Shown piece by piece: positions 6,913-31,928 of a stretch of 33,167 bases of DNA; the first letter of the stretch is position 1, and the number at the start of each line of letters is the position of its first letter. The DNA lies in assembly GCA_900318245.1 (NCBI GenBank), contig ONJT01000020.1, positions 1 through 33,167 of the forward strand, in the 5' to 3' direction. The position numbers and the translations under genes are program-made. The notes beneath the pieces were generated by a model. That model was not told the DNA's origin. It saw only the letters and a program-made list of their open reading frames with translations, and ran no database searches. The DNA comes from an uncultured Bacteroidales bacterium. GTDB taxonomy: Bacteria > Bacteroidota > Bacteroidia > Bacteroidales > Paludibacteraceae.

Positions 6913-7617
6913 GTGAAAAGAACGATATACATAGCGACCCTCATTCTTTGTTCCTTGCTCTTTGTTCCGAAAGCGCAAGCGCAAAACGAACAGCCGTACC
7001 TGTGTGAGATTGGTCTGCAGGCAGGTTGCGGATACTATGTAGGCGATGCCGCGCCGCATATCTTTATGCACCCGCGCGAAGCGTACGGAATTCATTTCCG
7101 GTATAAGTTCACCAAGCGCTGGGCGCTGCAAGTGAAGGCTTCCGGCCAACGTATCACAGGCAATGACTTCACGATGGATGGCAAACGGTTGGACACCTGG
7201 TGGGTAAACCAAATGGTGGGAGTGGATATCATGGCGGAGTTTAACTTCTTCCGATTCGGGTCCGCGAACAAATACGACCGACACATCCGCCCGTACACGC
7301 CGTATATCTTCATCGGTATCGGCGCCGGCATCTACGGCAACGATGCCAACAATCGTCCGACCTTCGGTTGCGTAGCACCTTACGTACCCCTGGGTATCGG
7401 TTTCAAGTGGAAATTCTATGACTGCGTAGGCCTGAACATCGCCTGGCAGCATAACATCTATATGGCAGATAATCTGGAAGGCCGCGAGAGTATGGACAAC
7501 AAGTACCAACTCAACGGCTGGAATTGGATGAACTGCGACCTCACGGGAATGTTTACCGTAGGTATCGTCTTTGAATTTGCCCGCGCACCCAAACCGTGCC
7601 GCATATGCAATTGGTAA
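6913..7617 (+). CDS. Outer-membrane beta-barrel protein, DUF6089-like
   Basis: This is a 234-aa protein with an N-terminal signal peptide ([19 protein letters not shown], cleaved near AQAQ). The mature part is built of amphipathic strands ending in aromatic residues: [67 protein letters not shown]. This resembles the small Bacteroidota barrels of the DUF6089/PorT-like type; the family assignment is tentative. The start is GTG at 6913, 6 nt after the radA stop. Directly downstream are uppS and bamA, so it sits in an envelope-assembly block. The C-terminus PKPCRICNW has two cysteines, which is unusual for a barrel end. Confidence 0.7.
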
Positions 7618-28119: not shown

Positions 28120-30035
28120 GCTTCCTCAAAATCGTCTACGCGGTCTTCTTCGATCACAAGGTTGTCAATGATGAACTGCTGGCGCTCGGTGGTGTTCTTA
28201 CCCATATAGTAGGCGAGCAACTCTTTGACATTATCGTCCTTACGCAGGTTCACCTGGTCGAGACGGATACCATTACCGATGAAGCCCTTGAACTCGTCCG
28301 GCGAGATCTCTCCGAGGCCTTTGAATCGCGTGATCTCCGGATTCTTGATCTTGCGAAGTGCTTTCTGGCGTTCCTCTTCGGAATAGCAGTACACCGTCTG
28401 GTTCTTATCCTTCACGCGGAAGAGCGGCGTCTGCAGGATATAGACGTGTCCTTTCTTCACAAGGTCCGGGAAGAACTGGAGGAAGAACGTCAGCATCAGC
28501 AGACGAATGTGCATACCGTCCACATCGGCATCGGTAGCAATAATGACTTTGTTGTAGCGCAACTCATCCAAACCGTCTTCGATATTCAGCGCCGACTGCA
28601 GGCAGTTGAACTCTTCGTTCTCGTACACCACCGACTTGCTCAGTCCGTAACTATTGAGAGGTTTTCCGCGCAGCGAGAACACGGCTTGCGTACGCACGTC
28701 GCGGCTCTTGGTGATGGATCCCGACGCCGAGAGCCCCTCGGTGATGAATATACAACTCTCTAAGCGCAGATCATCGTCGGAGTCCTTGGAACTCTTTACG
28801 GGTTTGGTATCGTTGAGGTGAATCTGACAATCGCGCAACTTGGGATTGTTCACCAGGTTCTTCTTCGCCCGCTCGCGCGCCGCCTTGGTCACGCCGGCTA
28901 TCGCCTTACGCTCTTTCTCGGAATCCTGGATCTTCTGCAGCATGATCTCCACCGTCTGCGGATTCTTGTGCAGGTAGTTATCGAGATGCTGCTTCACGAA
29001 GTCATTGACGAATTTATTGATGCCTACGCCGCCGGTTGGACTCATGTCCTTCGAACCCAACTTCACCTTCGTCTGGCTCTCGAAGACGGGTTCCTCTACG
29101 TTGATGGCGATCGCGCCTACGACGCCGTTACGGATATCGGCGAGCTCCTGGTTCTTATTGAAGAACTCCTTGATCGTACGTCCTATCGCTTCGCGGAAAG
29201 CGGCTTGGTGGGTACCTCCTTGAATCGTGTGCTGACCGTTGACGAACGAGAAATACTCATCGCCGTTCTGGTCGGTATGCGTCAACGCGATCTCTATATC
29301 TTCGCCGACGATATGAATGATCGGATAGAGCGGACTGACGGTCATATTCTCCGTCAGCAAATCGAGCAGACCGTTCTTCGACATAAATTTCTTGCCGTTA
29401 TAGACAAGCGTCAAGCCCGTATTGAGGTAGGCGTAGTTGCGCAGCAACTCCTCGATATAGTCGTCGCGGAAATGGTAGTTCTCGAACAATCCTTTGCTGT
29501 CGTCGGGCACAAACTCGATGATCGTACCGCGCTTCTCCGGTCCGTTATAATCCAGAATACCGCTATCCTTGGTCAACTTACCTTCGCTAAACTCCGCCCG
29601 GCGGGTCTTACCTTCGCGGAAAGACTCCACGGCAAAGAAAGAACTCAAGGCATTCACGGCTTTCGTTCCGACACCGTTCAAACCTACGGATTTCTTGAAG
29701 GCCTTGCTGTCGTATTTACCACCGGTGTTGAGCACACTCACTACCTCGACCAACTTACCCAGAGGTATGCCGCGGCCGTAGTCACGCACGCGCACCCGGC
29801 CGTCCGCCACATCGACCTCGATCACTTTTCCTTCACCCATGCGATACTCATCGATCGAGTTATCGATACTCTCTTTGATGAGCACATAGATACCGTCGTC
29901 GGAGTGACTACCATCGCCCAACTTACCGATATACATACCCGGCCGGCGCCGGATATGTTCCATATCGTCAAGGTGAATGATGTTCTCTTCGCCGTACTCT
30001 ACGGCATTCAAATTTATATCTTTTTCTTCTGCCAT
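28116..30035 (-). CDS. parE: DNA topoisomerase IV subunit B
   Basis: This 639-aa ATPase subunit works with ParC to decatenate daughter chromosomes. The GHKL ATP site includes [20 protein letters not shown] and [14 protein letters not shown]; the transducer has [15 protein letters not shown]; the TOPRIM domain has [10 protein letters not shown] and [20 protein letters not shown]; and the C-terminus has [33 protein letters not shown] and the overall length fit the Bacteroidota type II B subunit annotated as ParE rather than GyrB; the two can be confused. It overlaps the cca gene by 22 nt upstream and the 60-aa gene by 4 nt downstream. parC is not in the window. Confidence 0.92.
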
Positions 30036-31483
30036 AATTCTATTACAAATTGCTTTGCCGCCTCGTGGTCATTAGGGATGACTCCGTCGAGGATTGCATC
30101 TTTGATCGCGCTCTTCAGTTCGCCGACCAACGAACAAGGTTCGAGATGGAATAGCTCCATGATCTCCTTGCCGTCCACAGGCGGTTGGAAATTACGAATG
30201 CGGTCGCGTTCTTCCAACTCCACCATCTTCTGGCGCACCAGCTGGTAGTTATGATGGAACCGGGCTTTCTTCTCTTCGTTGCGGCTGGTGATATCTGCAT
30301 CGCAAAGGAGCATCAGGTCGTCGATATCATCGCCCGCCTCAAAGAGCAAACGCCGAACCGCGCTGTCCGTCACCGTATCTTCTATCAGGTTGATCGGCCG
30401 CATATGGAGGTCCACCATCTTTTTCACATACTCCATCTTCTCGTTCAGCGGCAACTTCATCTTCGCAAAGATCTTCGGCACCATCTTTGCGCCGATATAG
30501 TTGTGATTTCGGAAGGTCCAACCCGCCTGCGGATCCCATGCCTTGCTCTTCGGTTTGCCTATATCGTGCAGCAAGGCTGCCCAGCGCAACCAGAGTTTAT
30601 CGGTGTTCTCCGATATATTATCTAATACCTTTAAGGTGTGATAGAACACGTCCTTGTGCCCGCGTCCTTCCTTCACCTCGATGCCCTTGAGTGCCACTAA
30701 CTCCGGGAAGATGAGCGGCAGTAGACCCGTCTTGTCGAGTAATATCCAGCCCTCCGAAGGACGGCGGCTAAGCATGATCTTATGCAACTCTTCCGCGATG
30801 CGCTCTTTGGTGATGATGCCGATACGTTCCTTATTGCGCACGATGGCATCGAAGGTCTCTGAGTCGATGTTAAAGCCTAACTGCGTAGCAAACCGTATCG
30901 CGCGCATCATACGCAGCGGATCATCGCTGAACGTGATATCCGGATCAAGCGGCGTGCGGATGATGCAACGCTCCAAGTCTCCCATGCCGTCAAATGGATC
31001 CAGCAACTCCCCATACTGAAGAACCCTTTCACCTTTCACCTTTAACCTTTCACCTTTATTCAAACATATCGCCATCGCGTTAATCGTGAAGTCCCTTCTA
31101 TTCTGGTCTTCCTGCAGCGTCCCATCTTCTACGATCGGGTTGCGACTGTCGCGCGTATAACTCTCTTTCCGCGCGCCAACGAATTCCAACTCAACAGAAT
31201 CAATCCTTTCACCTTTCACCTTTAACCTTTCACCTTTCACTTGCGCTGTGCCATAGGTCTTAAAAACCGACAAGTGCGCACCCTTGCCCAAACGCTTCGC
31301 CACTTCCTCTGCCAAGAGAATACCCGAACCCACCACGACGACATCTATATCGGTCGAAGGGCGATGCAGAAACAGATCCCTCACCCATCCGCCTATCACG
31401 TAGCACTCCAACCCCATTCGATCGGCCGTTTCTCCGATCAGATGCAGCACTTCATTCTCTATTTTCGGGTTCTCAACTCGCAT
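30014..31483 (-). CDS. cca: CCA tRNA nucleotidyltransferase with two in-frame repeat insertions
   Basis: This 489-aa enzyme adds or repairs the 3' CCA of tRNAs. The nucleotidyltransferase head shows [13 protein letters not shown], the catalytic aspartates in [26 protein letters not shown] and [17 protein letters not shown]; an HD domain follows ([14 protein letters not shown]), as in Bacteroidota homologues. The ATG at 31483 directly follows a GTG at 31486 and suits the promoter at 31503-31534. Two copies of the peptide [11 protein letters not shown] interrupt the head domain at residues 83-93 and 143-153, encoded by identical 33-bp DNA. Homologues have short turns there (between AQV and [11 protein letters not shown], and between LNK and GELLDPFDG). 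Both insertions keep the frame, so the protein is probably functional. Confidence 0.93.
31025..31057. repeat. 33-bp repeat, copy 1, inside cca
   Basis: This is built from the units CCTTTCACCTTT and CCTTTAACCTTT-type blocks (on the minus strand AAAGGTGAAAGG and TTAAAGGTG). It is identical over 33 bp to the copy at 31205-31237 in the same orientation and reading frame and encodes [11 protein letters not shown]. Internal 6-bp periodicity makes slippage possible. Confidence 0.9.
31205..31237. repeat. 33-bp repeat, copy 2, inside cca
   Basis: This is the second identical copy, starting 180 bp from the first. It encodes the same 11 residues between AQV and the strand [11 protein letters not shown]. 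The distance is a multiple of three, so both copies are read in the same frame. Confidence 0.9.
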
Positions 31484-31502
31484 CACCTGACTTTTGCGGC
31501 TG

Positions 31503-31618: not shown

Positions 31619-31703
31619 GTACTTTCGGCGGGCTAGGTGTCCCCGTTAATCGGGGAAACCGTAACACGGGAAGGGGTAATGTAGTCGGGAGGGCCGAAGG
31701 TAC
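31619..31703. other. GC-rich dyad island, possible structured RNA
   Basis: This part of the 445-bp cca-zeta spacer is much more GC-rich than its flanks. Arms GTACTTTCGG (31619-31628) and CCGAAGGTAC (31694-31703) pair over 10 positions (one G-U as RNA). Inside are the hairpins TCCCCG-TTAAT-CGGGGA (31640-31656) and CCGT-AAC-ACGG (31659-31669). An 8-T run follows at 31707-31714 on the plus strand. No protein frame or known RNA family was recognised. The minus-strand arm also forms the -7 box of the site at 31695-31726. Confidence 0.45.
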
Positions 31704-31726
31704 AACTTTTTTTTGACATATGCAAA
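31695..31726 (-). promoter_or_regulatory. Promoter-like site reading toward cca through the GC-rich island
   Basis: On the minus strand, TTTG (31726-31723), a 20-bp spacer and TACCTTCG (31702-31695) resemble the other promoters, with one departure (TTCG for TTTG). The -33 box plus spacer is identical to that of dnaN except for one base. A transcript would cross the GC-rich island and could end near a weak hairpin at 31600-31620 or run into cca. Confidence 0.5.
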
Positions 31727-31762
31727 TACCCGTGCGTTTTTCCAACTATTTTGTCAATTAGC

Positions 31763-31871: not shown

Positions 31872-31903
31872 TTTGCATATATCAAATTTTTGTTGTACCT
31901 TTG
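31872..31903 (+). promoter_or_regulatory. Promoter of the zeta kinase gene pair
   Basis: TTTG (31872-31875), a 20-bp spacer beginning CATATATCA, and TACCTTTG (31896-31903) match the Bacteroidota promoter. The start codon at 31929 lies about 20 nt after the expected transcription start. Confidence 0.85.
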
Positions 31904-31916
31904 CGGCCGCAAAGGT
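31897..31916. promoter_or_regulatory. 20-bp inverted repeat over the zeta promoter start site
   Basis: ACCTTTGC-GGCC-GCAAAGGT is a fully symmetric 20-bp sequence that contains the -7 box and the expected transcription start. It could be an operator bound by the antitoxin or by the complex, or form a 5' hairpin in the mRNA. Equivalent repeats occur at the cca and yhcH-like promoters, so it need not be specific to this gene pair. Confidence 0.6.
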
Positions 31917-31928
31917 TAAACAACATAG

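Follow-up and report, generated by a model that had tools for sequence, protein, structure and literature searches.

A heptamer repeat, (AAAGGTG)n, is dispersed through the genome of this bacterium and those of some of its congeners, occurs in two sequence forms, lies in frame in many genes, and gives way to other sequences in the same protein loops from one species to the next. We estimate a probability of about two in three that these copies constitute a dispersed heptamer repeat of this genus in two forms, one pure and one sense-coding. Two of the arrays are located in the cca gene of the window (the whole 33,167-nt stretch of DNA analysed here). The features discussed in and around this gene are as follows.

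30014-31486, minus strand: cca, encoding a CCA-adding tRNA nucleotidyltransferase of 490 aa; carries both arrays
31205-31237, minus strand: heptamer array copy 1, residues 84-94, in a hairpin turn of the catalytic head (direct reading, TRF)
31223-31225, minus strand: TTA codon of copy 1, at the place of an in-frame TGA in the pure heptamer (direct reading)
31025-31057, minus strand: heptamer array copy 2, residues 144-154, in a second loop of the head (direct reading, TRF)
31043-31045, minus strand: TTA codon of copy 2, at the place of an in-frame TGA in the pure heptamer (direct reading)
31322-31333, minus strand: third cca loop, around residues 52-55, empty in the window (comparison of 59 cca genes of the genus)
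30593-30613, minus strand: fourth cca loop, around residues 292-298, empty in the window (same comparison)

The minus-strand stretches 31237-31205 and 31057-31025 both read AAAGGTGAAAGGTTAAAGGTGAAAGGTGAAAGG. Direct reading confirmed the claim of a preliminary description that the two 33-bp copies are exact, in frame and 180 bp apart, each encoding 11 residues of the cca product. That description had taken 33 bp as the unit, which has to be corrected: the 33-mer amounts to 4.7 units of the heptamer (AAAGGTG)n, and TRF identified a tandem unit with a period of 7 bp at both copies (5.1 units at 31205-31240 and 4.7 units at 31025-31057), so that each copy is itself a tandem array. A unique 33-bp mobile element was rejected on the same ground. 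The cca product contains the PolyA_pol head, RNA-binding and HD domains (Pfam); its top NCBIfam matches are CCA tRNA nucleotidyltransferases, all under the curated cut-offs, and cca is represented by a single match in its own genome (G000).

Both copies occupy positions where homologues have short turns, as had been proposed. In an alignment to the solved chain 4WBY, copy 1 lies opposite a 10-residue gap and copy 2 opposite an 11-residue gap, which places the copies in what are short turns elsewhere. The alignment with relatives' cca genes that the preliminary description had recommended gave the same picture, 55 of 59 genes of the genus being without an insert of four or more residues at site 1 and 53 of 59 at site 2. 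Copy 1 with its flanks is unfolded (z +0.69) and non-palindromic, again as described, and copy 2 consists of the same 33 bases. An AlphaFold2 model of the window's CCA protein, built with 29 sequences, has an extended hairpin at copy 1 and coil at copy 2; it was given little weight, being of mediocre quality (mean pLDDT 66, pTM 0.45). Most likely, the two arrays are tolerated filler in two hairpin turns rather than a gain of function.

Other repeats are present in the window. Two 27-nt stretches 30 kb apart (1476-1502 and 31701-31727) form an inverted pair with 96% complementarity; one arm lies where the listed frame 1455-2738 has its 5' end and the other upstream of cca, and the two may mark a promoter region in common. 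Upstream of cca there is also a near-perfect palindrome around GCGGCCGC (31890-31923), and an 11-bp tandem repeat (CCGTAGGATAA) is present in 4.1 copies at 481-525.

The preliminary description had suggested that the genome be searched for the repeat. In the 2.26-Mb assembly (91.86% complete), a 26-base array form gave 76 matches with up to three mismatches, against 2 for its reversed control, and a 19-base form gave 119 matches with up to two mismatches, against 8 for its control; the array is thus not a product of chance. When the matches to the 26-base form were merged by eye, about 30 arrays were obtained. Together with the in-frame copies found in many unrelated genes, they bear out the proposal of a dispersed element that enters coding loops of essential genes. 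Across 121 sampled genomes of the genus, own genome included, the pattern AAAGGTGAAAGGNNAAAGGTGAAAGG was found in 39. A draw of 150 genomes from the family, 13 of which belong to this genus, contained the pattern in 2, both of this genus, and it occurred in 0 of the 137 sampled genomes from other genera of the family. The preliminary description had set against its own claim the case of many genera sharing the same residues with diverged DNA, and this distribution is not of that kind.

The exact 33-mer was found in 28 stretches of genome_contigs, some of them from one genome or orthologous; by its own description, this collection holds one genome per species for 84,980 species. Titles of 26 of the stretches name Bacteroidales, Bacteroidetes or Paludibacteraceae, several from rumen or reticulum. 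The remaining two are a groundwater Deltaproteobacteria assembly and an unplaced bacterium; in these stretches (L112 at 4507 and L113 at 680) the 33-mer lies within longer AAAGGTT/AAAGGTG arrays, and convergence or mis-binning may account for them. A set of 125 arrays, each with two or more exact units, was collected from the surroundings of matches to a single search pattern, with orthologues counted separately; 51 of them have four full units and 33 have five. The genomes are fragmented drafts, mostly metagenome assemblies among those with titles, which speaks for an assembly artefact. The preliminary description had named such an artefact as a threat to its claim, and we find it scarcely credible: the array recurs at these cca sites in the separate genomes G030, G037 and G006 and in the named record L111, with diverged flanks.

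The two forms of the repeat are distinguished by a stop codon. Since 7 is not divisible by 3, TGA turns up in every sense frame of a pure array once it reaches about three units; the antisense reading has no stop in any frame (SPFTFHLSP). The TGA place of the 33-mer is filled by TTA, and the T common to both cca copies is therefore the stop-removing base. This role of the T variant was absent from the preliminary description, as were the antisense and N-terminal uses of the repeat. The 125 arrays were classified with the sense reading tested first and a codon score required for the antisense class only. Of the 40 arrays with an internal AAAGGTTAAAGG, 34 lay in an open sense frame of 100 aa or longer, and the other 6 belonged to neither the sense-frame nor the antisense-coding class. 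The 85 arrays without an internal AAAGGTTAAAGG comprised 8 in a sense frame of at least 100 aa, 11 in antisense coding and 66 in neither class. Altogether 72 of the 125 arrays fell into neither class, as judged by open frames and codon score.

Gene context was further assigned to 151 arrays from the own genome and relatives, using open frames together with a codon score that had been trained on the long ones. We obtained 21 internal sense arrays, 11 internal antisense arrays and 91 that were not internal, a class that takes in N-terminal arrays as well as the RluA-type gene, whose codon score fell short; 26 were set aside as another heptamer type, and 2 were edge cases. The many arrays that are not internal, 91 of 151 by this codon-score test, count against our preferred explanation. 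At the TGA place, the 21 gene-internal sense arrays encode Leu (TTA) in 15 cases, Gly in 4, Arg in 1 and Ser in 1; AAAGGTT was seen in 0 of the 11 internal antisense arrays. The exact 33-mer itself has a single open sense frame, and 24 of its 28 stretches have a frame of at least 80 aa through the 33-mer there. In L119 the frame stops right after the array, and in L126 it begins shortly before it.

When orthologues were merged and the RluA-type site was included manually, TTA was present at 14 of 18 distinct sites; were the five single-step codons that the search pattern admits equally likely, the probability of this would be 2.2e-7. This favours a shared source, although mutation or amino-acid bias could contribute to the prevalence of TTA; the stop has been removed more than once, as Gly, Arg and Ser at this place show. 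These alternatives would also suit a local origin with no dispersal, in which purine-rich loop codons expand independently by slippage and avoidance of TGA gives TTA. Empty alleles can indeed hold short purine-rich seeds, such as GTGAAGAAAGGAGA in L034, and a pure tract no longer than about 20 nt leaves one sense frame open. The prevalence of TTA speaks against such an origin, which we regard as unlikely while keeping it in view below.

To describe how the loops are filled within the genus, the window cca was compared with the cca genes of 58 relatives, giving 59 genes. Inserts of at least four residues were present in 18 of 59 genes at the loop near residue 53, in 4 at site 1, in 6 at site 2 and in 20 at the loop near residue 295, before which one gene (L089) ends. 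The array of the window is found at site 1 in L037 too, with 11/11 codons identical, and at site 2 in both L032 and L038, each of which has 10/11 codons identical to the window and a different first codon. The insert DNA is hence nearly unchanged where relatives share the insert, at odds with diverged DNA beneath the same residues. Other repeats occupy site 2 of L033, L037 and L040, and on a quick tree of shared codons the repeat type at this site needs 5 changes.

Fourfold-site identity of the window cca to L037, L032 and L038 is 0.535, 0.538 and 0.436. The runs of identical codons that contain the insert are 14, 11 and 11 codons long, respectively, and the next longest runs, in conserved motifs, reach 10, 10 and 11, a tie for L038. 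The preliminary description had deduced recent copying from exact identity; the identity is real, and the deduction is weakened by these conserved motifs with identical runs of 10-11 codons. Judged from sequence, the near identity of the inserts would fit re-copying, conversion or horizontal transfer without proving any of them. Filled and empty sites were compared by eye; no target duplication was evident, although the flanks have diverged enough to hide one. The net insert lengths are 30 nt at site 1 and 33 nt at site 2, not multiples of 7, which counts against simple slippage, as this would proceed in 7-bp steps. G+C-rich palindromic stretches of the CCCTCC...GGAGGG kind were also observed in frame in cca loops (L044 at site 3, L086 at site 0), and similar in-frame stretches occur in a gldG loop in L173, L176 and L180.

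The distribution among relatives bears on two further explanations. The inserts might be ancestral and inherited vertically, selection on either the sequence or the peptide having kept their DNA nearly the same. The window and L037 share nine further bases beyond the site 1 array, and all carriers at site 2 fall inside one 13-row clade of the tree, which favours such inheritance. In sister species, however, a given site is filled by a different repeat or is empty, with the 5 changes at site 2 mentioned above, and the peptide is not conserved (GGLINGENGG and SRKSKVESRK occur in the same loop), which makes old vertical inheritance improbable. Alternatively, the encoded 11-residue peptide could have been recruited repeatedly for its usefulness, for example as a basic tRNA-gripping loop of the CCA enzyme. 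It is basic and located in the catalytic head, and a basic stretch is what an export signal requires at the N-terminus; neutral or acidic fillers are nonetheless found in the same loops of other species, and the same array or its Gly form appears in the unrelated GldG, M13 peptidase, TonB-type receptor and acyltransferase. We consider such recruitment decidedly improbable and, since sister species fill the same loops with other sequences, we rejected a conserved functional peptide as the main reading for the CCA enzyme.

A dispersed repeat in two forms remains the preferred reading, and in-frame insertions within genes of otherwise conserved proteins were found in cca, gldG, the RluA-type gene and others. 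In the own genome, arrays are carried by GldG (TIGR03521, above cut-off) and by an RluA-type pseudouridine synthase (a Pfam match, below the NCBIfam cut-off). Among other own-genome genes, those of the M13 peptidase, acyltransferase and TonB-type receptor contain internal copies in sense, and those of CoaE and a FemAB-like protein contain them in antisense. In relatives, the gldG and RluA-type loops hold heptamers of the AATCAC, CAAATCT or GGGTTAC type or a G+C-rich palindrome, and in some relatives an AAAGGTG array too, or nothing clear.

The 94 inserts of at least 30 nt at six loops have a lag-7 agreement of 0.396, compared with 0.263 in 1880 control windows, and a lag-8 agreement of 0.331, compared with 0.250. 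Under a strict periodicity cut (best-lag match of 0.7), 7 of the 94 inserts pass versus 4 of the 1880 control windows, so that many loop fillers are not clear heptamers. Genomes with AAAGGTG in a loop, the repeat family being assigned by eye, are richer in AAAGGTG genome-wide (5 versus 56 genomes, one-sided p 2.3e-5), and the p value is unchanged when the loop copies are removed. The AAAGGTG family in a loop thus tracks the genome's own content, a further point against independent local expansion. The relation is weaker for AATCAC loops (p 0.0032, or 0.0048 with loop copies removed), a family picked post hoc whose reversed control is itself frequent in some genomes.

Arrays are also found at the N-termini of putatively exported proteins, where export signals were judged by hydropathy and eye. 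Fifteen proteins have an N-terminal array inside a plausible, putative signal peptide; they are what remained of 17 rows once the uncertain L297 was set aside and an L306 protein that appeared in two rows was counted a single time. Read in sense, the array gives a basic start (12 residues); read in antisense, the array or a related heptamer gives the hydrophobic core of the putative signal (FLSPFTFHLSP, FLSTFNFQLS). The carriers of array-built signals include BamG, M23 peptidases, FKBP-type, TraB/GumN, TPR and DUF6048 proteins. BamG of L019 matches NF053685 above cut-off from residue 30 onwards, and three more BamG proteins were recognized by a matching mature start. Among 30 BamG loci examined by eye, an array-built signal is clear in 5 (L307, L309, L311, L312 and L323) and degenerate in 3 (L314, L316 and L321), 17 have an ordinary signal, and 5 were left unclassified (L318, L319, L324, L326 and L328).

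The BamG search also matched other proteins over their first 32 to 44 residues only, in G000, G015, G026 and G030. An 84-nt cassette is common to genes of BamG (three genomes), a weakly PorV-like protein, whose match is far under the curated cut-off, and a third gene (G030 and G015) for a secreted protein, which matches a gene of the window:

6913-7617, plus strand: comparator gene with an ordinary N-terminal export signal; its mature sequence matches the cassette genes in G030 and G015

Over the first 84 nt, 66-77 positions are identical in 11 between-gene pairs of cassette genes, only one of which lies within one genome, versus 21-55 (mean 33.75) in 36 control pairs of nine ordinary signals, mostly BamG orthologues, all comparisons being ungapped, which lowers the controls. 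The likeness extends to nt 4-48, before the array, where 32-41 of 45 positions are identical between cassette genes versus 9-27 (mean 17.4) in the controls, and 9-18 in the 8 control pairs that are between genes. The cassette was seen in L307, L337, L338, L340, L296 and L312, and other species have BamG and the third cassette gene with ordinary signals. Folding was better than in shuffled sequences for three array-built N-terminal DNAs (z -3.27, -7.12 and -2.74), unlike the cca insert. In L306 and L260, neighbouring genes of one stretch begin with nearly the same array-built N-terminus. Collectively, array-built export signals and their cassette common to unrelated genes are strongly suggested.

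In our explanation, the two forms of the repeat correspond to two kinds of site. The pure form resides outside genes, or inside genes that read it in antisense, where stops are absent, and the sense-coding form has one base changed per 21 bp, by which the in-frame TGA is turned, in most cases, into TTA or otherwise into another sense codon. The arrays showed neither a mobility enzyme nor a target duplication nor fixed ends, and on that account we infer the copying step: recombination or template switching may carry short tracts from one dispersed array to another and into sites that tolerate them. In genes, only in-frame, stop-free results would survive, selection removing the others. Arrays may lengthen by three units (21 bp) per step, by which the frame would be kept; the own-genome M23 peptidase gene, with two TT units 21 bp apart, fits growth in 21-bp steps.

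A slippage that changed the frame would instead make the heptamer a switch turning cca on and off, and repeat tracts are known as switches elsewhere (PMC4692102). For cca such phase variation is a very remote prospect, given that the gene has a single match in its own genome and is presumed essential, that the arrays are short and interrupted by TTA, and that L032, L037 and L038 have an open frame, as does the window. We tentatively extend the reading of a two-form dispersed repeat to a self-spreading, peptide-coding satellite, which is possible rather than probable; this coding-adapted heptamer would pass between genes in sense phase and, where sense and antisense arrays adjoin back to back, make portable, hairpin-forming cassettes that exchange the export signals of unrelated proteins, and each lineage would go on refilling the same loops with a heptamer family of its own.

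Short tandem repeats are usually regarded as noise or as on-off switches. The heptamer studied here looks like a recurring source of protein sequence from both strands, supplying basic loops and hydrophobic export-signal cores, and the stop-removing substitution would be a route from a noncoding to a coding satellite. With many sequenced relatives in which the sites are empty or filled, the entry of a repeat into essential genes and the origin of signal peptides become testable. Among the literature matches listed, we found neither the AAAGGTG repeat nor array-built signal peptides, and likewise no stop-edited coding form, use of both strands, loop turnover or common export-signal cassettes; the repeat's own letters gave a single match, an unrelated yeast paper.

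Heptamer repeats (TAACTGA and GGGAATC) and the in-frame Rickettsia palindromic elements (RPE) are known (PMC4679880, PMC4692102, PMC2229807, PMC2996958). TAACTGA repeats occur in Beggiatoaceae, some Cyanobacteria and five Bacteroidetes, and resemble the present repeat in their dispersed 7-bp arrays, a stop codon when read forward, patchy distribution and no evident mechanism (PMC4679880). Their arrays are placed mostly just upstream of start codons, with 24 sets in or overlapping coding regions, in 13 of these proteins at a stop codon (PMC4679880); unlike them, AAAGGTG has a stop-free variant that is common within genes. The heptamers GGGAATC and GGGGA(C/T)T of Xanthomonas and Nostoc are similarly dispersed with a preference for four units (PMC4692102), the number of full units in 51 of our 125 arrays. 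G-quadruplex formation by these heptamers has been observed in vitro, and within genes the coding strand holds fewer of them than expected (PMC4692102).

RPE are dispersed short repeats that lie between genes and in frame in housekeeping genes (PMC2229807, PMC2996958). The AAAGGTG repeat shares with them this intergenic and in-frame genic placement, typically in unstructured segments and apparently tolerated. RPE are 105-146 bp long and form long stem-loops (PMC2229807), whereas the cca insert is a 33-bp tandem array that is neither palindromic nor folded into a long stem-loop (z +0.69), and the AAAGGTG repeat, unlike RPE, needs one base changed per 21 bp for reading. Finally, the Yersinia YPAL/RU-2 elements offer a likeness in the N-terminal use: there too a dispersed repeat supplies a portion of the export signal, through certain in-frame fusions (PMC2229807). 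Compared with those elements, the present repeat provides 15 plausible array-built signals, orthologues with ordinary signals, and a cassette common to unrelated genes.
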